Positions 16,935-35,322 of a stretch of 35,322 nucleotides of DNA are shown here, piece by piece. Every line of letters begins with the position of its first letter. The first letter of the stretch is position 1. Location of the stretch: the IMG/VR virus record IMGVR_UViG_3300037234_000276, positions 1 through 35,322 of that record. One strand, given 5' to 3'. The notes under the pieces are model-generated. The model saw only the letters and a program-made list of their open reading frames with translations. It was not told the DNA's origin and did not search any database. The translations under genes and the position numbers were made by a program. Source of the stretch: a virus.

Positions 16935-17159
16935 CTACTCAACTGTAATAGGCCATATTATTTCTCCAGCCATGGCAGTATTTACAATAGTATGACGAGA
17001 GCTGTTTTGTATTTGAGATATAAGATTGAGAGGGATCATATGATCACCATCGCCAATTGTTACCTCTGCTCCAAATAGGAAATTGGGCTGCTCTGGCGAA
17101 ATATAATGAGGATGATTTGTATTAACATATACATTATCTAGCTCTATTTCGTGTTTCAT
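16935..17159 (-). CDS. Small SPEQ/TAMAGE protein A, paralogue of 19529-19729
   Basis: A 74-residue protein, last in the leftward endolysin operon, starting in a TAATG overlap with the amidase stop. It is a clear paralogue of the protein at 19529-19729: both read as Asn-Xaa-Asn-His-Pro then SPEQ near the N-terminus and TAMAGE with Trp near the C-terminus. At DNA level 19 bases (TTCTCCAGCCATGGCAGTA) are identical. It has no membrane segment or cysteine. I do not recognise the family. Translational coupling to the endolysin hints at a partner, inhibitor or timing factor. Confidence 0.7.
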   Translation of the reverse strand: MKHEIELDNVYVNTNHPHYISPEQPNFLFGAEVTIGDGDHMIPLNLISQIQNSSRHTIVNTAMAGEIIWPITVE

Positions 17160-17605
17160 TAGACTATTAAATCTTTGAACTCTTCGACATCAAAGTTCGG
17201 ACATGTTTTATTTGGGTTTACTGCATAATGTCCTATTATCTCAATATCTGGAATTATTCTTTTCCAGAACCCACACACTACTGACAGGCTGCTCATTTGT
17301 TCAAACGTGAAATAATCATTACCTATGAGACATATTCCAATAGATTCATCATTCAGGCCTCGGGTGTGCGCTCCGTATTCATCATTTGTAAAAACATCAT
17401 CATTGTCTATTGGTCTACCGGCTTCAATTATCCCGTCTTTAGTTTCATCGTATTCATTCTTATATAAGGGTATGCCATTTAATATAACATAATGATAACC
17501 TATATCTCGCCAACCATTCCCATTTACATGCCACCTTCTGATAGCGTCAGCATTACCCCAGTCAGATACTGAGCAGTGTATTATAATTCTTTTAATGTTT
17601 TTCAT
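17159..17605 (-). CDS. N-acetylmuramoyl-L-alanine amidase (endolysin, T7-lysozyme type)
   Basis: A 148-residue Amidase_2/PGRP domain that cuts the bond between MurNAc and L-Ala in peptidoglycan. Zinc ligands fit His10 (RIIIHCS), His126 (IIGHYAVNP) and Cys135 (KTCPNFD); Tyr38 and Lys133 match the catalytic Tyr and Lys of T7 lysozyme. There is no signal peptide or cell-wall-binding domain, so release needs a membrane-permeabilising partner. The start lies 14 bases inside the preceding gene and has only a weak site, pointing to coupling. Unlike the other late genes it is on the leftward strand. Confidence 0.92.
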   Translation of the reverse strand: MKNIKRIIIHCSVSDWGNADAIRRWHVNGNGWRDIGYHYVILNGIPLYKNEYDETKDGIIEAGRPIDNDDVFTNDEYGAHTRGLNDESIGICLIGNDYFTFEQMSSLSVVCGFWKRIIPDIEIIGHYAVNPNKTCPNFDVEEFKDLIV

Positions 17606-18194: not shown

Positions 18195-18224
18195 ATATTA
18201 ACATGAAACATGACCGCCCGTCAA
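18195..18224 (-). promoter_or_regulatory. Leftward promoter P1 (endolysin operon)
   Basis: On the minus strand: -35 TTGACG, an 18-base spacer ending TTTCATGT, -10 TAATAT. The TG before the -10 makes it an extended -10. TGAC-N5-GTCA overlaps the -35. It matches P2-P6 in layout and lies just past the stop of the 55-residue gene. Confidence 0.75.
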
Positions 18225-18229
18225 TGAGA

Positions 18230-18397
18230 CTAGTTATTTAATCCAGCTAACAATAACCTGCAAACTTTAATTGCTCTATCTTTGAGTGTTGGGTCAGCCT
18301 TTAACTTAGCATGTATTTCTTTTTTATTTGGTGCCGATGCTCTTATTTTATCTATTATGGTTTTCTCTGCTTCATTGATAGGTGTACTTTTATTCAT
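18230..18397 (-). CDS. Small hypothetical protein, 55 aa
   Basis: A short, basic, helical protein that begins MNKSTPINEAEKTI and ends RLLLAGLNN. AGGAGTATTAAA precedes the start, a good ribosome site, and the start overlaps the end of the zinc-finger gene by four bases. It is the last gene before promoter P1. No known domain. Regular codon use and coupling support a real gene; function unknown. Confidence 0.65.
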   Translation of the reverse strand: MNKSTPINEAEKTIIDKIRASAPNKKEIHAKLKADPTLKDRAIKVCRLLLAGLNN

Positions 18398-18903
18398 TTT
18401 AATACTCCTATTTTTAATATGTGAGCCATCTGGCTGCGTTTTGCGTATATAAAATCCATTGGAATTAGTTCTTCTACCATATGCTCTAAATTATCCATCA
18501 CATTATCATCGTTTATAGATTTGAATATTAAGCAGTTAAAAATAACTTCTGGATCATATTCAATAGATCGCTCCCAGAACATTGGGGGCCGATCAAAGAA
18601 TAATGGTTCAACTTGATCTGGAGTACCCTGCTCTGCTGTCATAATTGCACGTAGACAAGCGCCTTTAATTGGACAATTACCCCCTGAGCATCTAACTACG
18701 TTATGTGTTCCAGTTACTTTATTTATTTCAATTTCCTGTTCAAGTGTTTTGTCCCAATCCTTCTTTGTTTGTTCACGTCTGCGAGCTTCATCGAGTTTAC
18801 AACATACTATGCACTTGTATCTATACCCATCATTATGGAGTTTATGCCTATAGAACTCTAATATTGGTTTTTCTATTTTGCAGATTCTGCATGTCTTTTT
18901 CAC
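18394..18903 (-). CDS. Zinc-finger protein
   Basis: A 169-residue protein starting at a GTG with AGGATAAATC before it. Residues 5-34 hold a two-CxxC knuckle (CRIC, then CIVC), the treble-clef type seen at the N-terminus of phage endonuclease VII/HNH-related proteins (KTCRICKIEKPILEFY). A second Cys set (RCSGGNCPIKGACLRA, residues 71-86) resembles a short motif seen in other phage accessory proteins. No HNH catalytic residues follow, so a nucleic-acid or protein-binding role is more likely than nuclease. It is in the P2 operon. Confidence 0.7.
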   Translation of the reverse strand: MKKTCRICKIEKPILEFYRHKLHNDGYRYKCIVCCKLDEARRREQTKKDWDKTLEQEIEINKVTGTHNVVRCSGGNCPIKGACLRAIMTAEQGTPDQVEPLFFDRPPMFWERSIEYDPEVIFNCLIFKSINDDNVMDNLEHMVEELIPMDFIYAKRSQMAHILKIGVLK

Positions 18904-18947
18904 GATTTATCCTAATAACATTACTTAAATGCTTAAATGCTTAATTG

Positions 18948-19376
18948 TTATGCAGTTTGTTCTTTACTTCTAATCAAAGACTGTCTAATCTTTTCAAGAT
19001 TATCTGCCATCATTTTGCCAATGTCTCGAATATAGAGAACAGTGTCGCCATATATTAGATACGATTCTAATTTATCTGTAATAATATTGTTTGATTCTAG
19101 TAAGTCACTATTATTACCAATGATAAAATAATCATCTACTATGTCTTCGCAATGTTCTAATATGTCGTCCAGTAGTTCATTCATTACTATTAATTTATAG
19201 TGTGGTACTTCCCAATAAAAACAGTTTGCATCAGTCTGCCCAGTAGACAACGACAATGTTTTATCGTCTATATCTAGCTTAATGTATAACTGCACTTCAT
19301 TGTCAGTACCTAAATAATGTACATCGATGTCGGTTAATGTTGGGTATTTTATATCTATTGTTGTTTCTGGGTTCAT
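18948..19376 (-). CDS. Hypothetical protein, 142 aa
   Basis: A very acidic protein (many Asp and Glu) with strand-rich N-terminal half (residues 1-60) and helical C-terminal half ending in a basic helix (IRQSLIRSKEQTA). AGGATTAAACA precedes the start. It is the first gene after promoter P2 and its leader hairpin. DNA-mimic or host-protein inhibitor are possible for such acidic phage proteins, but this is only inference. No domain recognised. Confidence 0.6.
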   Translation of the reverse strand: MNPETTIDIKYPTLTDIDVHYLGTDNEVQLYIKLDIDDKTLSLSTGQTDANCFYWEVPHYKLIVMNELLDDILEHCEDIVDDYFIIGNNSDLLESNNIITDKLESYLIYGDTVLYIRDIGKMMADNLEKIRQSLIRSKEQTA

Positions 19377-19404
19377 TGTTTAATCCTATAATGTTAAATC
19401 AAAA

Positions 19405-19443
19405 GATGCTCAACCCGTTAGCCAAACAAACGAATTGAGCATC
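19405..19443 (-). terminator. Leader hairpin (attenuator-like) before the 142-aa gene
   Basis: GATGCTCAA (19405-19413) and TTGAGCATC (19435-19443) are a perfect 9-bp stem. On the leftward transcript the stem is followed by TTTTGATTTAAC, a short U-tract. It lies between P2 and the gene start, so it would act as attenuator. A 28-codon frame starting with ATG runs into the stem. Confidence 0.55.
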
Positions 19444-19502
19444 CAACCTATAAATTTGGAGGAACTTATTGAGTTAAATATTAATGTAAAAATCATACAT
19501 AT

Positions 19503-19532
19503 ATAATATCATGAATTGGTACCAGCCGTCAA
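19503..19532 (-). promoter_or_regulatory. Leftward promoter P2
   Basis: -35 TTGACG, 18-base spacer ending ATTCATGA, -10 TATTAT with extended-10 TG. The -35 overlaps the TGA stop of the gene at 19529-19729, so gene end and promoter share bases. It would drive the 142-residue, zinc-finger and 55-residue genes. Confidence 0.78.
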
Positions 19533-19729
19533 TCAGCGTCTGTGGTAACTGTAAAGTTAGCATATGAGGTCATGCCAGTATCAATATGCCATCGTAATTC
19601 TCCAGCCATGGCAGTAATAGACATATCATCTATTATTACTCCACCTGGGAAAAGGGATTGTTCTGGTGAAAAATAATAAGGGTGGTTTGGGTTTGTATAT
19701 ATATTCTCTGGCTCTATGTCGTTTTTCAT
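19529..19729 (-). CDS. Small SPEQ/TAMAGE protein B, paralogue of 16935-17159
   Basis: A 66-residue protein with the same motif order as protein A: NHPYYFSPEQ near residue 15 and TAMAGELRW near residue 40, with a shorter linker. AAGGAGTTTAGCA precedes the start. It is transcribed alone from promoter P3, while A is coupled to the endolysin. No known family, no membrane segment. Two separately controlled copies in a compact genome suggest related but distinct jobs. Confidence 0.7.
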   Translation of the reverse strand: MKNDIEPENIYTNPNHPYYFSPEQSLFPGGVIIDDMSITAMAGELRWHIDTGMTSYANFTVTTDAD

Positions 19730-19753
19730 TGCTAAACTCCTTAATATATAAGA

Positions 19754-19783
19754 AGTTTAGCATGAAACGCAGCCAGCCGTCAA
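19754..19783 (-). promoter_or_regulatory. Leftward promoter P3
   Basis: -35 TTGACG, 18-base spacer ending TTTCATGC, -10 TAAACT. The spacer and -35 match P1/P2/P4 closely, the -10 is the weakest of the set. It drives the 66-residue protein and lies about 20 bases past the stop of the gene before. Confidence 0.68.
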
Positions 19784-19804
19784 TGAAGGCCTATTGATAA
19801 TGGT

Positions 19805-20266
19805 CTATAGAGTTGCACCTTCTAAATGTGGCATGATTGTTTCTTTTAGTATTCTAACCTGTGATTTTTCGATGTTGAGTTTTACAACACTGTCTCTACT
19901 ATGCGTTATCGATAGTATGGCCTGGCTCATTGCATTTAGAGTATTATTTACGCCTTGTATTATAAACTCTTTATTATATGTATTACCTCCAATTTTAACA
20001 CTATTAAAACATACTAAATCTTCATTTAAGCATTTTAACAGGACAATCATCGCACATGTAAATGTTCCTATAATATTATTGTCAGTGGTTTCACCTAACA
20101 AGTCTTGGAGTTCAGTATAATCATATAAGAATACTTCGCTACAGGTTATAACAATAAATGGAGTTTGAACTTTACATCCATCATCAGGTAGTTGAACAGT
20201 TATTTTATCACTGCGATAATCTGGCCCTTTTTTAATTGACCTTCTTTTATTTGATAGTTTATTCAT
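19805..20266 (-). CDS. Hypothetical protein, 153 aa
   Basis: A 153-residue protein, basic at the N-terminus (residues 1-20), with mixed strands and helices afterwards and three cysteines between residues 31 and 85. AAAAGGAAAACACA precedes the start. It ends the P5 operon with the Rha-type regulator and two lipoproteins. No recognised domain and no membrane segment. Function unknown. Confidence 0.6.
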   Translation of the reverse strand: MNKLSNKRRSIKKGPDYRSDKITVQLPDDGCKVQTPFIVITCSEVFLYDYTELQDLLGETTDNNIIGTFTCAMIVLLKCLNEDLVCFNSVKIGGNTYNKEFIIQGVNNTLNAMSQAILSITHSRDSVVKLNIEKSQVRILKETIMPHLEGATL

Positions 20267-20281
20267 TGTGTTTTCCTTTTG

Positions 20282-20650
20282 TTAGTATGAGCTATAAGTA
20301 CATAGACTTTCAATTAGATATCCCGACTCCTTAACCCATATTTTTATAGTCGTTACATTATGTGCCTTATACGATACCCATTCAAACGTGTGGCAAGTAT
20401 ATATTTCGGGGTCAAATGTACCAGCCCCAGAATAGAATACATAAGTATAATCAGTACTAGCATTATAATCTGATAAGAATGATGTTATTGTTGACTTTGT
20501 TATATTACTTGATACATTTAGACCAGCAATTAAAATAGTGTATGTATCCTCAGAAGGGCCGAGGTCGTCAATCGGCTCATTGTTAAATGAGCATCCATAT
20601 ATTATTGTAAGTGATAGTACAAGCGCTATTATTGTTATTAGTTTTTTCAT
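20282..20650 (-). CDS. Putative lipoprotein 1
   Basis: A 122-residue precursor with a lipoprotein signal: MKKLITIIALVLSLTIIYGC, so Cys20 would be lipidated and the mature part begins CSFNNEP. Ser at +2 usually means outer-membrane sorting in enteric bacteria. The mature part is about 100 residues, strand-rich, with no known domain. It is next to a second lipoprotein whose signal sequence is nearly the same, so they likely arose by duplication. Phage lipoproteins often block superinfection (T5 Llp, for example). Confidence 0.75.
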   Translation of the reverse strand: MKKLITIIALVLSLTIIYGCSFNNEPIDDLGPSEDTYTILIAGLNVSSNITKSTITSFLSDYNASTDYTYVFYSGAGTFDPEIYTCHTFEWVSYKAHNVTTIKIWVKESGYLIESLCTYSSY

Positions 20651-20682
20651 TGTGTTTTCCTTTGTTTTAGTTATTACCTTTA

Positions 20683-21093
20683 TTAGTTATATTTAACAGT
20701 CTTAATTACTACGTTACTAAGTATGTTAGTATTCCAGTAGAATATAATTCCAGGCATCACAATTCTGCCGTCTTCTACCCATGAATTAAGAGAAATTACC
20801 CAATGATCATATAGTAGGAACATGTTTTTATACTTGATAACATTAGAAGAAGCATCAAAAAATGCATTACTATATACATAATTTGTGCCTTCAGTTGTTA
20901 TCTCGACATAATTTGTGACTTCAGTTGTTATCTCGACATCATATAAATGAGATTGAGTGGGAATTGCCAAGATTGCATCATAAGTATTGTATTCTACATT
21001 CACTGGATCACTCAGCTGCCCAGTATTTAAACTGCAGCTTGTCATTATAGTAGTAATTAGTATTAATATAATTATTGTTATTAGTTTTTTCAT
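20683..21093 (-). CDS. Putative lipoprotein 2 with internal repeat
   Basis: A 136-residue precursor starting at 21093, where AAGGAAACAACA precedes the ATG; an ATG at 21138 lacks a site. Signal: MKKLITIIILILITTIMTSC with lipidated Cys20 and Ser at +2. Residues about 53-72 hold a ten-residue tandem repeat (VEITTEVTNY then VEITTEGTNY) from a 30-base duplication. The rest is strand-rich with Trp/Tyr. Same first eight residues as lipoprotein 1. Likely surface-exposed and made in the P5 operon; superinfection exclusion is inference. Confidence 0.75.
   Translation of the reverse strand: MKKLITIIILILITTIMTSCSLNTGQLSDPVNVEYNTYDAILAIPTQSHLYDVEITTEVTNYVEITTEGTNYVYSNAFFDASSNVIKYKNMFLLYDHWVISLNSWVEDGRIVMPGIIFYWNTNILSNVVIKTVKYN
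20876..20935. repeat. 30-bp tandem repeat in lipoprotein 2
   Basis: Two adjacent 30-base units (20876-20905, 20906-20935) differ at one base. The unit begins ACATAATTTGTG. It adds ten residues in frame. Slipped-strand change of copy number would keep the frame. Confidence 0.9.
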
Positions 21094-21165
21094 TGTTGTT
21101 TCCTTATTAATTAGAGCGGTTATCATTTCTGCTAACATCTTGTAACATTAAGTTACTGTGTAAAA

Positions 21166-22122
21166 TTACCATAAGTGTAGATACTTTCCACTCACTCCAA
21201 GATTTAACAATGATTTAGATGCTTTTTCTAACACGTCTAAATCTAGCATTGATCTAATATAATCAATGCCTTCTGGTAATACTTTTATAATTGAGCTAAC
21301 AACATTATAACTGCCATCTTTATGATGTTCTGTATGAATTTTAGTTTCATTTTCCAGAATACCATCATTTATCATAGTAGATGTTGCGCTCCACCCATTA
21401 TCTAGTTTTCTAATAAGGTGGTTATCATTCAACACTTTTCGGATAGCATGATCAGATTTATAGTTATTATCATTTATTATCTTTGCCACATCTGATAGTT
21501 TTATACCTCGGCCACTACCCAGTATTGTTGTTGCATATTCTAGTTGGTCATTTTGAGCAGTTAACTCACTTTCAATTTTAACTATCTTTGCATCCCGCAT
21601 TAAGCCTTCTAACTTATCAATGCGGTTAACCATAGTAATTCTAAGGTCTATCGAATAACCAGATATTAGAGTTAATACCTGTAATTTATTTAAAATATAT
21701 TGTTTGCTCTGCCGGTTACTTTTATCAGTATAATAGGTGGCCTCACATTTGAGGTCACCTCTTTTGTCATATACTTCATTTAATTTTTCAATGTCTCTGA
21801 CAATATTATCATGCCTTTTGCCAGTTATCTCGGATAACTCTACACTGGTTGTCATGTACTCTTCACCTGAAACAGCCTTATTTATCATATTCTCTAAGTA
21901 TTGTTTTTCACCTTCTATCTTCTGTAGCTTTGCTATATTCATATTATTACTTTCAATAGTAGAGTCTTTAATTTTGACAACCTCGTCGACCATCGTATGG
22001 GCTGTGGTTAGTTGATATTCTAATTTCTTGCAACTGCTAGATAGTTGATTGATAGTGTGTATGTTATTATAATAGGCCTCAGAGTATTCATAAGAGGTCG
22101 GTTTAGTTGTTTTGTTTTTCAT
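21166..22122 (-). CDS. Rha-family regulator with KilAC-like C-terminus
   Basis: A 318-residue protein in three parts. Residues 25-85 are coiled coil. Residues 92-175 are a Rha domain: VELSEITGKRHDNIVRDIEK, a YYTDKSNRQSKQYIL strand, then LISGYSIDLRITMVNRIDKLE. Residues about 205-300 (LSDVAKIINDNNYKSDHAIRKVL, ending LPEGIDYI) resemble the KilAC/ANT domain of phage antirepressors. Rha interferes with lysogeny control in P22-type phages. It is first in the P5 operon, upstream of the lipoproteins. AAGGAAACAACA precedes the start. Confidence 0.82.
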   Translation of the reverse strand: MKNKTTKPTSYEYSEAYYNNIHTINQLSSSCKKLEYQLTTAHTMVDEVVKIKDSTIESNNMNIAKLQKIEGEKQYLENMINKAVSGEEYMTTSVELSEITGKRHDNIVRDIEKLNEVYDKRGDLKCEATYYTDKSNRQSKQYILNKLQVLTLISGYSIDLRITMVNRIDKLEGLMRDAKIVKIESELTAQNDQLEYATTILGSGRGIKLSDVAKIINDNNYKSDHAIRKVLNDNHLIRKLDNGWSATSTMINDGILENETKIHTEHHKDGSYNVVSSIIKVLPEGIDYIRSMLDLDVLEKASKSLLNLGVSGKYLHLW

Positions 22123-22140
22123 TGTTGTTTCCTTAATATT

Positions 22141-22170
22141 ATTATAACATACATTATATCACGCTATCAA
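22141..22170 (-). promoter_or_regulatory. Leftward promoter P5
   Basis: -35 TTGATA, 18-base spacer ending ATGTATGT with extended-10 TG, -10 TATAAT (perfect). It keeps the spacing of the family but has lost TTTCATG to ATGTATG. It drives the Rha-type gene, both lipoproteins and the 153-residue gene. Confidence 0.75.
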
Positions 22171-22174
22171 TCAG

Positions 22175-22774
22175 CTATGCCATACCGGCTGCTAATCCTT
22201 CTTTTGCTATTGTTCTAATATTTGGCTGTGCTCTGGTATTTATATTTGAACACTCTAAATAATTCAAGTATCCCACACAATCTTTTATATCCTGTTCTGA
22301 TAAGTTGAACCAGTCCTCAGTAACTCTCTTTTTTGCATATATCTTGTGTATCATTATCTCAACCCTAAATACATCCTTTACCTTAAAATATACAGCATTT
22401 GCTATTTTATTCCCAGAGTGTTTTAATATTGTGCCTATAATTATTTTTGGGTTCCGACCTGCACCTATCTTCATATGTTCTCCATCATATATCATAAACA
22501 TGTACCCCTCATGTGGTTTTTCTTCTTTTTTGAATATCCTAGTCAGATCTGAATTGTTAATGTTTTGTGAAAAGTGAATACTATTATATGCAATTGCAAG
22601 TGTCATGGCTTGTCCGCGAGTCAGAACATAATGCATTTCATCATTTTCTGTAAGTTCCATTTTATTTGATGTAATAGTATCCTTTTTGTCAATGTCTTGA
22701 ATTATTCTGGCATGCCTTCTGCCCGTAATCCTTGCAATCTCTAAACTAGATATTGTATTTTTAATGTTTTTCAT
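22175..22774 (-). CDS. Rha-N / T5orf172 (Mug113) two-domain protein
   Basis: A 199-residue protein. The N-terminus (SLEIARITGRRHARIIQDIDK, residues 10-30) is the DNA-binding start of the Rha family; residues about 90-165 (GYMFMIYDGEHMKIGAGRNP, VEIMIHKIYAKKRVTEDWFNL) match the T5orf172/Mug113 domain, a GIY-YIG-like nuclease fold: strand, Lys-Ile-Gly, a His before the EDWF motif. Such fusions occur in phage antirepressor families. GAGGGG precedes the start. It follows the terminator at 22799-22825. Confidence 0.78.
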   Translation of the reverse strand: MKNIKNTISSLEIARITGRRHARIIQDIDKKDTITSNKMELTENDEMHYVLTRGQAMTLAIAYNSIHFSQNINNSDLTRIFKKEEKPHEGYMFMIYDGEHMKIGAGRNPKIIIGTILKHSGNKIANAVYFKVKDVFRVEIMIHKIYAKKRVTEDWFNLSEQDIKDCVGYLNYLECSNINTRAQPNIRTIAKEGLAAGMA

Positions 22775-22798
22775 TGTTACCCCTCATTTGATTATATT

Positions 22799-22825
22799 AA
22801 ACGCACAGGCAATTCCCGTGCGTTT
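22799..22825. terminator. Factor-independent terminator, probably bidirectional
   Basis: AAACGCAC (22799-22806) and GTGCGTTT (22818-22825) form a perfect 8-bp stem, with GG/CC pairing inside. It separates the coiled-coil gene (stop at 22835) from the Rha-T5orf172 gene on the leftward strand. The leftward T-tract is only three bases, so some read-through is likely, which the downstream gene would need. Confidence 0.72.
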
Positions 22826-22834
22826 CGTTTACTA

Positions 22835-23071
22835 TTATTTATTCTTTATTATATTTGTGACATTTTTAATCCTTTCTTCTAATTCATCGGTGGTGTTAGC
22901 AAGTATTTCTTTTAGCCTTCCATATTCTGCCATAGTCTCATCAGGTTCTCTGTCCTCGTCAGTGTCTATGTCCTGATCATGCAGTATGATTAATTGATCC
23001 CTGATTGAGGATAATGTACTTTCTAAGGTTTTATTAAGAGTATTATAATTATCTTTAATTGTTTTGTTCAT
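22835..23071 (-). CDS. Small coiled-coil protein
   Basis: A 78-residue acidic protein, start at 23071 chosen for AAAGGAAACAACA before it (an ATG at 23095 lacks a site). Almost all of it is predicted helix (NTLNKTLESTLSSIRDQLII; LKEILANTTDELEERIKNV) with a charged break at DIDTDEDREPDE. It follows the initiator gene and would share its transcript, so a role in replication control is possible. No named family. Confidence 0.62.
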   Translation of the reverse strand: MNKTIKDNYNTLNKTLESTLSSIRDQLIILHDQDIDTDEDREPDETMAEYGRLKEILANTTDELEERIKNVTNIIKNK

Positions 23072-23084
23072 TGTTGTTTCCTTT

Positions 23085-24170
23085 TTAAAGCTCAACTATA
23101 CGCTGAGTTTGTTCTTGTTTTATAGCAGTACTGATGTTTATCAAGTACTGAGAATACTTTTTTATTCTATCAACGATGCTGGCCCAATCCCTGTCTAAAT
23201 CAATCATTGTATCTTTCGGAATTACGTATGATATAGCCTCAGAAAATAAATTTTCAGGGCTATCACTTTTATCTATCATATATTTTATGTATTCGTTGAA
23301 GTCTTCTGCCTTATATCTTTTTATTCCATATTCATTTAATTCGTTAGACACATGATGTTTTAATTGAGTATGTTTATCATATCCACACAATAGTGGTTCA
23401 CTTATCATGATTTTATCTAATGCTGCACCAACCCCAACTGGCTCTGGGGCGGTGTGTTTTACTATTGTAGATATAAGAAGTGGCTCTAATTTTGGTTTAA
23501 TTAATTTGACAGGCTTTGGCCCAGTATCCTTTTTTGTAGATACTTGCTGCGCTTCATTTCTCCATTTGTCGGTGAATTGTATTTTATGAGTAGTGTGGGA
23601 AGTGCCATGTTCTATTATATTAATAAACCCTTTATCAGATAATGTGTTCAATGCTCTTTGGGTGCTTTTTTTACTGACCCCAGTAACCTTGACAATATCT
23701 ATAGTAGAAACCTCAACTGTGCCTGATCTTTGATATGATATCATTTGGTATAGTACTTTAGTTTCTGTGCCACTAAGTTCACTTAAATATTTATCAATAA
23801 ATGAGTGTGGTATCATGTGAAAAGTATATTTTCCATGGAATGTTTTTTTAGTTAGCTTGTAAGATAGTTTTACTATATTACTGCGCCATCTATTACCCTT
23901 AACTATTATATGAATATATCCTTTTGTTTCTAGCTCTTTTAATGCAGTCGTGAAGGCTCTCCTGGATAGTCCTACTCCCTTAGTTCTTTTTATTCCACGT
24001 ATAACTAAACCGTTGCATATTTGTTCAACGCAAAAATCCATTTCACGGTCATTGTTTTGCTTACCAACAGATTGACGAATATAAAATAATAGTAGTTTGA
24101 ATGATGCATGAGATAGTTCTGAAGAACTCTCACAGAGTATTGATTGATTGAACTTTGTAAAACTAGTCAT
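23085..24170 (-). CDS. Replication initiator with two winged-helix domains
   Basis: A 361-residue protein. Residues about 18-90 are a first winged helix (HASFKLLLFYIRQSV, LSRRAFTTALKELETKGYIHI) and residues about 130-190 a second (LSGTETKVLYQMI, VSKKSTQRALNTLSDKGFINI). This tandem arrangement is that of plasmid Rep_3-type and phage O-like initiators. Residues 215-361 are a linker and helical tail, with no ATPase motif. Three 22-bp-spaced iterons lie upstream, as expected for such an initiator. Its start is 24170 with AGGGGG as ribosome site. It is driven by P4. Confidence 0.78.
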   Translation of the reverse strand: MTSFTKFNQSILCESSSELSHASFKLLLFYIRQSVGKQNNDREMDFCVEQICNGLVIRGIKRTKGVGLSRRAFTTALKELETKGYIHIIVKGNRWRSNIVKLSYKLTKKTFHGKYTFHMIPHSFIDKYLSELSGTETKVLYQMISYQRSGTVEVSTIDIVKVTGVSKKSTQRALNTLSDKGFINIIEHGTSHTTHKIQFTDKWRNEAQQVSTKKDTGPKPVKLIKPKLEPLLISTIVKHTAPEPVGVGAALDKIMISEPLLCGYDKHTQLKHHVSNELNEYGIKRYKAEDFNEYIKYMIDKSDSPENLFSEAISYVIPKDTMIDLDRDWASIVDRIKKYSQYLINISTAIKQEQTQRIVEL

Positions 24171-24194
24171 TGCTGACCCCCTGTGATTAAGCTA

Positions 24195-24259
24195 CTTATT
24201 AACTGAGTTGATTTAAGAGGGATTGGGTTGCAACCCGCCCCCTCAGCTCAATCAATAAG
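24195..24259 (-). promoter_or_regulatory. Long dyad in the initiator leader
   Basis: CTTATT (24195-24200) and AATAAG (24254-24259) bracket GAGGG/CCCTC and a perfect 12-base palindrome GGGTTGCAACCC (24225-24236). TTGATT/AATCAA also pair. The dyad lies in the untranslated leader between P4 and the initiator start; it may control translation or be part of the origin. Confidence 0.6.
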
Positions 24260-24267
24260 GTATACTA

Positions 24268-24297
24268 ATAATATCATGAAAGATGACACGCTGTCAA
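24268..24297 (-). promoter_or_regulatory. Leftward promoter P4 (replication initiator)
   Basis: -35 TTGACA (perfect), 18-base spacer ending TTTCATGA, -10 TATTAT, extended-10 TG. TGAC-N5-GTCA overlaps the -35, as in P1. Probably the strongest of the leftward set. Confidence 0.82.
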
Positions 24298-24394
24298 TTG
24301 AGACAATCAACCGCGATAATGATACTATTATACTCTTATTATAACTCATTTTATAGGAAAAGGTGAAACATTTTTATAAATGTAGTGATTTTTT

Positions 24395-24455
24395 AGGGGG
24401 TCAAAATTGCCTATATAGGGGGTCAAAATTGCCCAATGAAGGGGTCAAAATTGCC
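24395..24455 (+). repeat. Iterons, candidate replication origin
   Basis: Three copies of (G)GGGGTCAAAATTGCC lie at 24395-24411, 24417-24433 and 24440-24455, in the same direction, with exact 22-base periodicity measured at the TCAAAATTGCC core. Iterons of about 20-22 bp are the binding sites for plasmid initiators. They lie about 225 bp ahead of the initiator gene. An inverted GGTCAA pair (24502-24507/24511-24516) follows. No DnaA box was spotted. Confidence 0.8.
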
Positions 24456-24501
24456 CTATCTTATAAAGATTAAATAACTTTAAGAAAAAGGGCTTCAACT
24501 T

Positions 24502-24516
24502 TTGACCAGAGGTCAA
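24502..24516. promoter_or_regulatory. Inverted half-iteron
   Basis: TTGACC-AGA-GGTCAA: two copies of the iteron core GGTCAA facing each other. In plasmids inverted partial iterons often let the initiator repress its own gene or nearby ones. Whether the initiator binds here is unknown. Confidence 0.45.
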
Positions 24517-24996
24517 GTCTCAGCCTATCGAATAAGGAACAATGATCAGTAAGGAGTTCCCGGAAGGCCTTGAAACTATACTACTCTCTATTCGATTCTC
24601 ATTTTAAAATACTATCCATGGTGAATTGTTCCGCCCGATTTATTAGTATAACATCCTATCTTTAGAATAGGGCAACATTTTTATTATAGCAATACCCATC
24701 ATAATAGATAACTTACCATAATAGTGCATGTTATCTTATAAAGTACCTTAGAGAGCAACCTGGCTGCATATTTGACTATATCCGATACTCTATATCAATA
24801 ACTCAATAATATGAAATATACAATTACCTTGTACTATCAAAATGAGAGGTCATGATAACGGCTAGTATTACCAACAAAGTTAAATATTCAATCTAAGCGT
24901 TGCAAATGATAATATGATAGTCTAGGTTATAAAACCTTAGAAAGCTGCATAGGGAGTCTCCTCGCTTCACCTGGTGGCCTATATGATAACTCAATA
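24517..24996. other. Non-coding stretch between origin and operator array
   Basis: About 480 AT-rich bases without any reading frame that has a credible start site. Two small hairpins are visible: CTAGGTT paired with a near match ending at 24940, and ATAGG (24949-24953) with CCTAT (24978-24982) around a locally GC-richer segment. It may be the origin's AT-rich melting region or carry a small RNA. I see nothing that decides this. Confidence 0.4.
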
Positions 24997-25104
24997 TGTA
25001 AACTATAATTGACAACATAGAAGTGGTAAACTATAATTGACAATAAACCTAATTATGTAAACCAACATTGACACTATCTGGGCATCTGTCAACCTACATT
25101 GACA
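24997..25104 (+). promoter_or_regulatory. Array of four palindromic operator-like repeats
   Basis: Four 18-base dyads of form TGTMAA-N6-TTGACA at 24997-25014, 25025-25042, 25056-25073 and 25087-25104. The last is perfect (TGTCAA/TTGACA); the others differ by one or two bases in the left arm. Spacings are 28, 31 and 31 bases, near three helical turns. They overlap both rightward promoters, so a bound repressor would block the whole rightward arm. Confidence 0.78.
25009..25037 (+). promoter_or_regulatory. Rightward consensus promoter PR1
   Basis: TTGACA (25009-25014), 17-base spacer, TATAAT (25032-25037): perfect match to the housekeeping consensus. The -35 is the right arm of the first operator repeat and the -10 lies in the second, so occupancy of either would shut it. 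It faces the endonuclease and terminase genes. Confidence 0.85.
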
Positions 25105-25128
25105 GCCGACCCTTTTTCATGGTAATAT
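25099..25128 (+). promoter_or_regulatory. Rightward promoter P6, same family as the leftward set
   Basis: TTGACA (25099-25104), 18-base spacer ending TTTCATGG, TAATAT (25123-25128). It copies the layout of P1-P5 but points rightward, and its -35 is the right arm of the fourth operator repeat. Confidence 0.72.
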
Positions 25129-25193: not shown

Positions 25194-25895
25194 TTGAAAA
25201 TAATTGACATATCGACACCGAAATATCCCGACATATTCACAATAGTAGATGACGAGGATTATAAACAACTCAATAAACACAAATGGAGTGCATATAAAGC
25301 ACCAAATGACAAGATGTATGTAATGCGAACTATAGTGTTAAATAAAAAGCCATATAAAACAAAAATAATAATGATGCACAGAGTAGTTAATAATACATCA
25401 AAAGGCAAAATAACAGATCACATTAATGGCGATAGTCTAGATAATCAAAAGTGCAATCTAAGATCATGTAATCACTCACAAAACGGATTTAATAAACCCC
25501 CAAACAAAGGACAGAAGTACAAAGGCACTCACCGCGTTCTAAGTGGGTTTGAAGCTAATATTTCAGCATACGGAATCAAATACTGTCTAGGAACATTCGA
25601 CACTGAAGAAAAAGCAGCATATGCTTATAATCTAGCTGCTATAAAATATCATGGTGAATTTGCATATTTAAACGATGTTGAGCCGCAGGATTTAACTAAA
25701 AATCATCTTTACTATAGCGAAAACTATAGAGGCGTATACTCTGAAAGTGGCAAGTTTGTTGCTAAAATAGGCATGTCTGGAAAGCGCGTATATCTAGGTT
25801 TTTATAATACCAAAGATGAAGCAGCATTGGCATACAATAAGGCAGCGTTAAAACTACATGGCAAAAAGGCCATATTAAATCTTCTGGATAAATAA
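25194..25895 (+). CDS. HNH endonuclease with two AP2 DNA-binding domains
   Basis: A 233-residue protein starting at TTG 25194, chosen because AGAGGT lies just upstream and the frame's earlier ATG overlaps the -10 of P6. Residues about 60-100 carry the HNH_3 motif (MMHRVVN, DHINGDSLDNQKCNLR, SQNGFN). Two AP2 domains follow at about 109-160 and 180-230 (YKGTH...LGTFDTEEKAAYAYN, YRGVY...LGFYNTKDEAALAYN). HNH-AP2 proteins are typical free-standing homing endonucleases. It sits at the head of the rightward arm, ending in a TAATG junction with the next gene. Confidence 0.85.
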   Translation: MKIIDISTPKYPDIFTIVDDEDYKQLNKHKWSAYKAPNDKMYVMRTIVLNKKPYKTKIIMMHRVVNNTSKGKITDHINGDSLDNQKCNLRSCNHSQNGFNKPPNKGQKYKGTHRVLSGFEANISAYGIKYCLGTFDTEEKAAYAYNLAAIKYHGEFAYLNDVEPQDLTKNHLYYSENYRGVYSESGKFVAKIGMSGKRVYLGFYNTKDEAALAYNKAALKLHGKKAILNLLDK

Positions 25896-26680
25896 TGAAT
25901 ATTAGAAACAAATTAAAACTAGTTAAAGCGAAGAACATCAAGCCCTATACGAAAAATGCAAAGATTCACAGCGAAGCTCAAATAGAACAAATAAAAGAAA
26001 GCTTAGATAAATATGATTACTACTCTCCGATAGGGATAGATAAGAATAATACTATAGTATTTGGCCATGGTAGATTTGAGGCCTTGAAATTAAAGGGAGT
26101 CGAAGATATTGAAGTCGTAGACCTATCCTATTTAAAACCTAAAGAAATCAAGAAACTTAGAATACTAGATAATAAGATTGTTAGTGATGATTATGACAAT
26201 GAAATCCTACAGGCAGAAATCAATAGCCTATACGGTAATTTAGAAGACGACATTAAACAAGTTTCAAACGACCTATCTATGGACATAGAAGATGTTGAGC
26301 AAATAATAACAGATACAAAACCCGAAGACGACACCTACACTGGCAACATTGAGGCTCCGATATATGAGATTAAAGGCAAGAAACCAACCTTTGATAAAAT
26401 GTGTAACCTTACTAAAACAAAAGCAATGATAAAAGAGATTAACGGCAGTAAGATACCCGGTGACACTAAAGAGTTTTTAATAAATGCAGCAATGCGCCAC
26501 ACCGTCTTTAATTATGAGAGTATTGCCGAATTCTATGCACACTCAACAAAGGAAGTGCAGGAACTCATGGAAAAGTCAGCACTGGTCATAATAGATTATA
26601 AAAAGGCAATCGAAAATGGGTTCGTTAGAATGACAGAAGGCATGGCAAAAGTATATGGTAAATCAATAGATGAAAAGTAA
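25895..26680 (+). CDS. ParB/Srx-like domain protein, likely DNA-modification partner
   Basis: A 261-residue protein. Residues about 10-75 are a ParB/Srx fold (IKPYTKNAKIHSEAQIEQIK, VFGHGRFEALK: the GHGR motif at 57-60). A helical spacer follows; residues about 170-250 hold FLINAAMRHTVFNYESIAEF, EVQELMEKSALVIIDYKKAI, a second conserved module I associate with phage proteins beside glycosyltransferases. There is no ParA and no HTH typical of partition ParB. It starts in a TAATG overlap with the endonuclease gene and overlaps the glycosyltransferase gene by 11 bases, so the two are coupled. Confidence 0.72.
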   Translation: MNIRNKLKLVKAKNIKPYTKNAKIHSEAQIEQIKESLDKYDYYSPIGIDKNNTIVFGHGRFEALKLKGVEDIEVVDLSYLKPKEIKKLRILDNKIVSDDYDNEILQAEINSLYGNLEDDIKQVSNDLSMDIEDVEQIITDTKPEDDTYTGNIEAPIYEIKGKKPTFDKMCNLTKTKAMIKEINGSKIPGDTKEFLINAAMRHTVFNYESIAEFYAHSTKEVQELMEKSALVIIDYKKAIENGFVRMTEGMAKVYGKSIDEK

Positions 26681-27524
26681 CTTCGCAGTATTCATTCTAT
26701 CTAACGGTAGACCCAACAACATAGTAACCCTGAACGCCTTAAACAACTCTAACTATAAAGGAAAAGTATATATCTTAGTAGATAATGAAGATAAAACCCA
26801 AAAGGAATATAAGAAGATACATGGTGATAAGGTAATCATATTTAATAAAAAAGCAATTGCCAAGAAGACCGACAACGGCGACAACTTCAATGACTTAAGA
26901 ACCACAACCCACGTCCGGAATGCATCATTCGAGATAGCTAAGAGCCTAGGAATAAAATACTTTGCTCAATTGGATGATGATTATTTAGAGTTCCAGTTCA
27001 GATATAATGATAAATTAAGATATAAGTATAAATCAATAAGAGACTTAAACAGCATATTTGAAACAATGATAGATTTTCTTAAAACTACCAAATGTAAGAG
27101 TGTGGCTATGGCCCAAGGTGGTGATTTTCTAGGCGGTAACCCAGATGATAATGGAGATAGAATAAGATTAAAAAGAAAGTGTATGAATAGTTTTATATGT
27201 GACGTTGATAATCCATTTAAAATAGTTGGTAGACTAAATGAGGACGTTAATACATATGTATCTAGAGGTATTGTTGGCGATCTATTCTTTACAACCTTTC
27301 AGATAATGCTCAATCAAAAGCAAACGCAAGCTGAGGCCGGTGGAATGTCTGAGACTTATCTAGAGTCTGGAACCTACGTTAAAAGCTTTTATACAGTTAT
27401 GTATAGTCCGTCATCTGTTAAAGTAGCAGAAATGATAACAAAACATAGAAGATTGCATCATGCAATCAGTTGGACCAACACTGTACCAAGAATAATAAAC
27501 GAAAAGCATAAAAAGACAAAGTAA
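26670..27524 (+). CDS. TET-associated-type glycosyltransferase (TAGT-like)
   Basis: A 284-residue GT-A-like glycosyltransferase. Motifs in order: SNGRP (11-15), YILVDNEDK near 34-42, LDDDY (101-105, metal and sugar-nucleotide binding), AQGGDF (148-153), NEDVNTY (190-196), TQAEAGGM (219-226), GTYVKSFY (234-241), HRRLHH (259-264). This series fits the TET/JBP-associated glycosyltransferases that add sugars to hydroxymethylated bases in phage DNA. No TET/JBP oxygenase or hydroxymethylase gene is visible here, so its acceptor is an open question: a host-made base, or a different substrate. It shares an operon with the ParB-like gene and the terminase genes. Confidence 0.75.
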   Translation: MKSNFAVFILSNGRPNNIVTLNALNNSNYKGKVYILVDNEDKTQKEYKKIHGDKVIIFNKKAIAKKTDNGDNFNDLRTTTHVRNASFEIAKSLGIKYFAQLDDDYLEFQFRYNDKLRYKYKSIRDLNSIFETMIDFLKTTKCKSVAMAQGGDFLGGNPDDNGDRIRLKRKCMNSFICDVDNPFKIVGRLNEDVNTYVSRGIVGDLFFTTFQIMLNQKQTQAEAGGMSETYLESGTYVKSFYTVMYSPSSVKVAEMITKHRRLHHAISWTNTVPRIINEKHKKTK

Positions 27525-34301: not shown

Positions 34302-35322
34302 ATGAGATATGACGAACTGCAGGAATTTATAACTGATCTATCAGATGCTGAAAGGTTAGTAAAATCAAAACAGATTAGCAATGTATATAGTTCAGCTTTA
34401 AAGGATATTAAAGCAGAGATAGCCAAAGCTCATACGACCATATTGAATGGTGTTAAAAAAGAAAACTACTATAACGAGATGATTAAGTTTGATAGATTGA
34501 AAAAACTAGAGGCCAATATACTAGAGACTTATCGGCCATACGCTAAAGAGATTGGGAAAAGAGTTGAGGCTGCCAGCATCCAATCATTTAGCAATAGTTT
34601 CTATTATAATCAATACGGCATCAATTGGATATCTCCATATAACTATGTGAGAGTTCCAAACGATGCTCTACAATTGTCAGTATATAGAAACAGGGAAGCA
34701 GTTATTAAAGCATTGACACCTGAAGCTCAGGCCATAATCCCTAAAACACCAAAGAACCTTACAGAATGGATAGCAACTAATAAACTGGATGAAGTAAACA
34801 AGATATTTGACGTAATAGACCAAGGGCTGTTAACTGGTAAATCATATCGTGAGACAGCCAAAGAACTAACAGACGCATTTGATGGATTCAATAAGAATGC
34901 GCTCAGAACCGTCAGGACTGAAGGTCATCGCAATATGGAAAGTGGCTCATATACTAACTGGGTCGAAGCTCAGAATAAAGGGGTCGAAGGATATAGACTA
35001 ATGGTAGCAGTTAAAGATACTAGTACCAGAAGTCAGTCAGCCTATGTTGACGGTAAGAAGGATAGAGGCGAAGGCTTTTTATATCCGGATGGTAATAGGT
35101 ATTTTATTCCCGGGAACACTGGCATTGGGGCATGGGATATAAACGACCGTGAGACTACTATAGAAATCATTGATGGTATTGAACCAACCGTAGAACGTGG
35201 TAGAAACCCAGCTACTGGTAAAAATGAAGTAATAGAGTTTCAGAGCTTCAATGCTTGGGCCAAGAGCAAAGGCCTAAAAAGAGATAAGAATGGCATACTC
35301 AGACAGGGTAAAGTAAAAATAA
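34302..35322 (+). CDS. Minor head protein (Mu F / SPP1 gp7-like), runs across the join
   Basis: The frame starts at ATG 34302 and is still open at the window end; it continues at base 128 after the 127-base overlap and stops at 135, giving 342 residues. Residues 215-260 (RTVRTEGHRNMESGSYTNW, VAVKDTSTRSQSAYVDGKK) fit the Mu F-like head morphogenesis domain, with the usual TRxxH changed to TRSQS, so His is replaced. N-terminal helices (1-110) may touch the portal. The family is a few copies per head and may help DNA exit. Confidence 0.88.
   Translation, partial: MRYDELQEFITDLSDAERLVKSKQISNVYSSALKDIKAEIAKAHTTILNGVKKENYYNEMIKFDRLKKLEANILETYRPYAKEIGKRVEAASIQSFSNSFYYNQYGINWISPYNYVRVPNDALQLSVYRNREAVIKALTPEAQAIIPKTPKNLTEWIATNKLDEVNKIFDVIDQGLLTGKSYRETAKELTDAFDGFNKNALRTVRTEGHRNMESGSYTNWVEAQNKGVEGYRLMVAVKDTSTRSQSAYVDGKKDRGEGFLYPDGNRYFIPGNTGIGAWDINDRETTIEIIDGIEPTVERGRNPATGKNEVIEFQSFNAWAKSKGLKRDKNGILRQGKVKI
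35196..35322. repeat. Assembly overlap, copy 2 (identical to window start)
   Basis: Exact copy of bases 1-127. Collapsing the two copies gives a 35,195-bp circle and restores the minor head protein gene. Confidence 0.93.

Follow-up and report, generated by a model that had tools for sequence, protein, structure and literature searches.

The viral DNA analysed here, a stretch of 35,322 bases referred to in its entirety as the window, carries six promoters (P1–P6, Table 1) which form a non-chance family with a conserved core. Six sites with a TTGAC/TA -35 hexamer, a spacer of exactly 18 bp and a TATTAT-like -10 hexamer, five directed leftward and one (P6) rightward at 25099, had been described in the initial annotation, and both their positions and their shared layout were confirmed. 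The consensus reads ATTGACRGC at the -35 region, its leading A being present immediately 5′ of the hexamer in all six sites, and TTCATGN in front of the -10 hexamer in five of them. GC, previously described as the usual continuation of the -35 hexamer, is found in five sites and replaced by GG in P1; a G at spacer position five likewise occurs in five, and TG before the -10 hexamer in all. The words directly preceding the -10 hexamer are TTTCATGN in P1, P3, P5 and P6, ATTCATGN in P2 and ATGTATGN in P4, which lacks the TTTCA word and possesses a perfect -10 hexamer (TATAAT). The central spacer positions, which lie between the words kept on both sides, vary freely. Besides the TG, each site matches 9–11 of the 12 hexamer bases, and the hallmarks of extended -10 sigma-70 promoters, i.e. 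a TTGACA-like -35, a spacing of 16–18 bp and TGN before a TATAAT-like -10, are present in all six, several of the -10 hexamers being weak.

Table 1. Promoters of the family, repeat arrays and predicted leader hairpins in the window
Feature	Sequence or structure	Position	Strand	Context
P1	TTGACG GGCGGTCATGTTTCATGT TAATAT	18195..18224	-	upstream of the 17592-18057 gene, amidase (17159-17605) and a 74-aa gene
P2	TTGACG GCTGGTACCAATTCATGA TATTAT	19503..19532	-	upstream of a 142-aa gene, an EndoVII-like gene and a 55-aa gene
P3	TTGACG GCTGGCTGCGTTTCATGC TAAACT	19754..19783	-	short leader, then a 66-aa gene
P4 (deviant)	TTGATA GCGTGATATAATGTATGT TATAAT	22141..22170	-	short leader, Rha/Ant (318 aa), two lipoprotein-like genes
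P5	TTGACA GCGTGTCATCTTTCATGA TATTAT	24268..24297	-	upstream of winged-helix replication initiator (361 aa), an 86-aa gene and a Rha/T5orf172 gene
P6	TTGACA GCCGACCCTTTTTCATGG TAATAT	25099..25128	+	upstream of HNH-AP2, ParB-like and TAGT glycosyltransferase genes, then terminase and structural genes
Four 18-bp direct repeats	TGTAAACYWWMATTGACA (TGTAAAC...ATTGACA), spacing 28, 31, 31 bp	24997..25104	+	last repeat ends in the P6 -35
Perfect consensus promoter	TTGACA-17-TATAAT	25009..25037	+	inside the 18-bp repeat array; lacks the spacer words of the family
Three 22-bp direct repeats	GGGGTCAAAATTGCC	24394-24459		upstream of the winged-helix initiator gene
P1 leader hairpin	17-bp stem, CCCUCC in loop	18105..18151	-	z -3.4
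P2 leader hairpin	15-bp stem, then UUUUGAUUU (U-rich run)	19405..19443	-	z -3.3
P5 leader hairpin	large hairpin	24195..24259	-	z -3.1

An exact 127-bp terminal repeat at its ends (1–127 and 35196–35322) identifies the window as the complete circular assembly of a phage genome with a unit of 35,195 bp; the GC content is 35%. The sole result of a terminase search among viral contigs is a contig of the same phage (L002), which crosses the circular junction, differs by two mismatches over 7.5 kb (99.97% identity) and does not cover P1–P6. The rightward genes encode the terminase, portal, capsid, tape measure and other structural proteins, and the closest terminase relatives (44–49% identity) belong to phages of Pseudomonas, Vibrio and enterobacteria. 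The leftward genes, extending from 24.2 to 16.9 kb, comprise those for the winged-helix replication initiator, Rha-type proteins, two lipoprotein-like proteins, an EndoVII-like protein and an amidase. A DNA megablast of the window against phages and an Rfam search gave no match, relatives of the replication initiator were not detected among viral contigs, phages and plasmids, and no integrase family was reported among the phage proteins scanned. All six sites are oriented with their genes. In P3 and P4 an ATG with a Shine-Dalgarno sequence follows ca. 20 nt downstream, and P1, P2 and P5 have longer leaders with strong hairpins. The earlier proposal that each leftward promoter opens a transcript group agrees with this gene map, the starts themselves being predicted from the sequence.

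The family stands out clearly in several statistical tests. A position matrix built from the six sites scores them between 39.0 and 27.1, and the next site of the window reaches 10.2, so that the matrix scan revealed no copies of the motif outside promoters; upon leaving out each site in turn, the omitted one still ranks among the top six. Spacer identity without the TG amounts to 8.3 of 16 positions versus 4.35 ± 0.51 in random sets, none of 20000 being as high. A de novo search for promoter pairs, which only used generic hexamers and spacing and grouped the hits by spacer likeness, returned exactly P1–P6 as one cluster. The best set of six had a mean spacer identity of 0.56 versus 0.448 ± 0.024 (maximum 0.533) in dinucleotide-preserving shuffles, calculated without the last three spacer bases which hold the TG, and none of the 300 shuffles attained this value. 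This greedily selected set comprised all members of the family except P4, whose place was taken by a site in a coding region. A looser single-linkage count was weaker, as a cluster of six also emerged in 2 of 200 shuffles.

The initial annotation had further claimed that the TTTCA and GC elements exceed the needs of a sigma-70 polymerase, and this is borne out by promoters of the same class and by the near absence of the family elsewhere. The control consisted of a sample of 128 unrelated viral sites matching TTGACA-N15-TGN-TATAAT; as these stem from mixed hosts, a taste specific to the host may still contribute to the words. Among the matches listed, TTTCA precedes the TG in none of the 128 and TTCA in one, compared with five of the six window sites for the latter, and GC follows the -35 hexamer in two; the controls rather carry T (66%) and then A or G before the TG, i.e. 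TRTG. A scan of viral contigs for the exact motif yielded one match, a single copy in front of a Shine-Dalgarno sequence and ATG on an unrelated 71-kb contig (L001). In 84,980 genomes (257 Gb), 27 isolated places, mostly in Clostridia, match the exact motif when its spacer may be either 17 or 18 bp long, versus about two expected by an estimate at even base composition; 23 of these carry a 17-bp spacer and many directly precede gene starts. Bacteria thus contain single promoters of this kind, as indicated by these dispersed matches, most of which lie in clostridial genomes. A looser pattern gave 22 single-copy matches in viral contigs, several of them in coding DNA, and no locus with two. Among the viral contigs and the 84,980 genomes scanned, no sequence other than this phage carries a family of the motif, and it is also absent from partial relatives including Vibrio phage pYD38-B and Salmonella phage SPF_0923. 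The motif is nearly private to this phage.

In our preferred, tentative interpretation, P1–P6 are extended -10 promoters of the host type, and their spacer additionally serves as a putative operator of a phage regulator. The host RNA polymerase would use them as sigma-70-type promoters and would require no activator, because a near-consensus -35, the TG and a usable -10 are available at all six. GCNKG after the -35 hexamer and TTTCA before the TG, together with the -35 hexamer itself, might constitute an asymmetric site for one phage DNA-binding protein, the two words being centred about 10 bp, i.e. roughly one helical turn, apart and thus presumably exposed on the same helix face. Such a site would lie under the polymerase footprint, rendering binding of regulator and polymerase mutually exclusive, and would therefore act mainly as an operator; we favour this function over the alternatives because a protein bound inside the footprint most simply blocks the polymerase. 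One regulator might jointly set replication (P5), the antirepressor-type gene (P4), the genes of P1–P3 and the rightward operon (P6), from which the Rha/Ant promoter P4 with its missing TTTCA and perfect -10 may escape or differ in control. The antirepressor-type gene (Rha/KilAC) under P4 hints at repression somewhere in the phage, and other phages maintain distinct spacer words of their own, as would be predicted if operators were private. Against an operator speak the deviating P4, the absence of copies beyond the promoters, in which the family differs from stoperators, and the lack of a recognisable CI-like repressor among the phage proteins scanned, many small ones of which match no family. 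The motif contains no consistent dyad. The dyad TGAC-N5-GTCA was considered as a common operator and rejected, as it occurs in P1 and P5 only.

The conserved words might instead reflect an intrinsic preference of the host polymerase, which would read GC and TTTCATG directly and thereby offset the 18-bp spacer and the weak -10 hexamers. We consider this explanation unlikely. The excess of exact genome matches, many located just 5′ of gene starts, the copy in L001 ahead of a Shine-Dalgarno sequence and ATG, and the perfect -10 hexamer of P4, the sole site without TTTCA, are in its favour. However, TRTG rather than TCATG is typical of viral promoters of this class (among the matches listed and from mixed hosts), the 17-bp spacer prevails in the genome matches, and the same phage possesses a consensus promoter-like site at 25009–25037 which lacks the words. 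A phage-encoded activator or polymerase-specificity factor which contacts the spacer and turns the promoters on appears improbable. It would be in line with the occurrence of the same words in the same phase in all six sites, with a spacer one base pair above the usual optimum and with the weakness of several -10 hexamers; yet the near-consensus -35 and the TG found everywhere let basal recognition be expected, no sigma or activator family was found among the phage proteins scanned, and the spacer is covered by the polymerase. Few activators apart from those of the MerR type are known to bind a spacer under the polymerase. MerR-type proteins act on 19–20 bp spacers with a dyad, whereas the spacer is 18 bp long in all six sites and has no consistent dyad. 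From the initially suggested choice of a shared activator or repressor, or a phage-specific selectivity factor, the latter has lost ground; it is less economical because each site already is a complete promoter.

Likeness by descent, with P1–P6 as copied promoter cassettes whose spacer words have no function, is highly improbable. Repeated gene-start stretches near 20628, 21071 and 23041 and the sequence ATGTATGATTT common to P1 and P2 downstream are compatible with copying. The identity of 64% in the core, however, drops at once to near background in the flanks (27% upstream, 33% downstream), and the mid-spacer is free to vary while the words on either side are kept. The unrelated flanks and the end of the likeness at the motif edges point to constraint on the core and against recent copying. 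Similarly remote appears to us a speculative variant, in which a phage factor riding the host polymerase would read a two-word spacer code, other unrelated phages using other words.

With ordinary sigma-70 extended -10 promoters, P1–P6 share the -35 hexamer, the TG one base before the -10 hexamer and a near-optimal spacing; they differ by the additional fixed GC and TTTCA and by a C at a position usually occupied by T. The C1 operators and late (Lpa) promoters of bacteriophage P1, a plasmid-prophage with antirepressors, are a further case of asymmetric operators which are dispersed and overlap with promoters. The sequence differs from that of P1–P6, and no C1 or Lpa homologue was identified here. 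In cluster A (L5) mycobacteriophages, asymmetric repeated operators or stoperators are dispersed over the genome, oriented with transcription and partly placed inside promoters (PMC9283540, PMC6550527). The sites of P1–P6 are likewise asymmetric, dispersed and oriented with transcription, and by analogy they may work like these dispersed mycobacteriophage operators. Their sequence is different, and L5-type phages contain 20–30 sites, most of them outside promoters, compared with six, all within promoters, in the present phage. An immunity repressor family with HTH and stoperator domain was not reported among the proteins scanned, many small ones of which match none. We did not assign P1–P6 to the cluster A system because this phage lacks the additional sites beyond promoters which define that system, and because a repressor of that kind was not found among the proteins scanned.

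Comparable private promoter families occur in other phages as well. When the promoter-pair test was applied blindly to ten other sequences, two were found to hold a private spacer family, namely an uncultured viral contig (L125) and Iodobacter phage PhiPLPE (L176); the remaining eight, all named phages, showed none in this test. The uncultured contig had been noticed via a first pass of the same kind and is therefore not an unbiased sample. Between 1597 and 7976 it carries about ten cassettes TTGACAGACC...AACAATGC-[CT]ATAAT-AGANACATA in front of small genes, in which the 17-bp spacer and the AGANACATA following the -10 are conserved; eleven sites were grouped, one of which (2236) fits poorly. 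PhiPLPE has three leftward promoters TTGACG-N4-CGGCAA (29783-, 11937-, 6588-), two of them preceding leftward gene clusters. Like P1–P6, both families consist of sigma-70-like promoters which recur and carry fixed spacer words private to the family, but the words are different and the spacers are 17 instead of 18 bp long. The text of the paper on the PhiPLPE group does not mention promoters, and it describes this lytic phage as having an antirepressor without a repressor (PMC3391216); an antirepressor-type gene without a repressor found is common to PhiPLPE and the present phage. The blind test shows that raw sequence suffices to detect private promoter families with a conserved spacer, and with two of ten comparison sequences containing one, a survey could uncover unknown phage regulators. 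In the present case, the motif offers a clean entry, at the sequence level, to the regulon of a phage which is uncultured and has no recognisable repressor.

The surroundings of the promoters contain additional potential control elements. Upstream of P6, the last unit of the 18-bp repeats constitutes a near-perfect dyad TGTCAAC-CTAC-ATTGACA, and judged from these repeats and the consensus promoter embedded in them the rightward operon is likely to be under a second layer of control. The 22-bp repeats look like a plasmid-type iteron origin. The predicted hairpins in the leaders of P1, P2 and P5 each precede the first gene, with z values from -3.1 to -3.4, and may serve as attenuators or mRNA-stabilising elements. 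In the P2 leader, UUCCUCC is located just upstream of the hairpin.

Two small proteins encoded at 19529–19729 (66 aa) and 16935–17159 (74 aa) are visibly alike. At 25895–27524, a ParB-like protein adjoins the TAGT glycosyltransferase, which shares 49% identity with genes of E. coli and Salmonella phages, and the pair is a possible DNA base modification module. A methylation switch at CATG was rejected; CATG occurs near expectation (0.86), GATC at 0.37, and the two DNA methylases have no assignable target. GATC is strongly depleted across the entire window (40 occurrences versus 108 expected), which suggests exposure to GATC-directed restriction.
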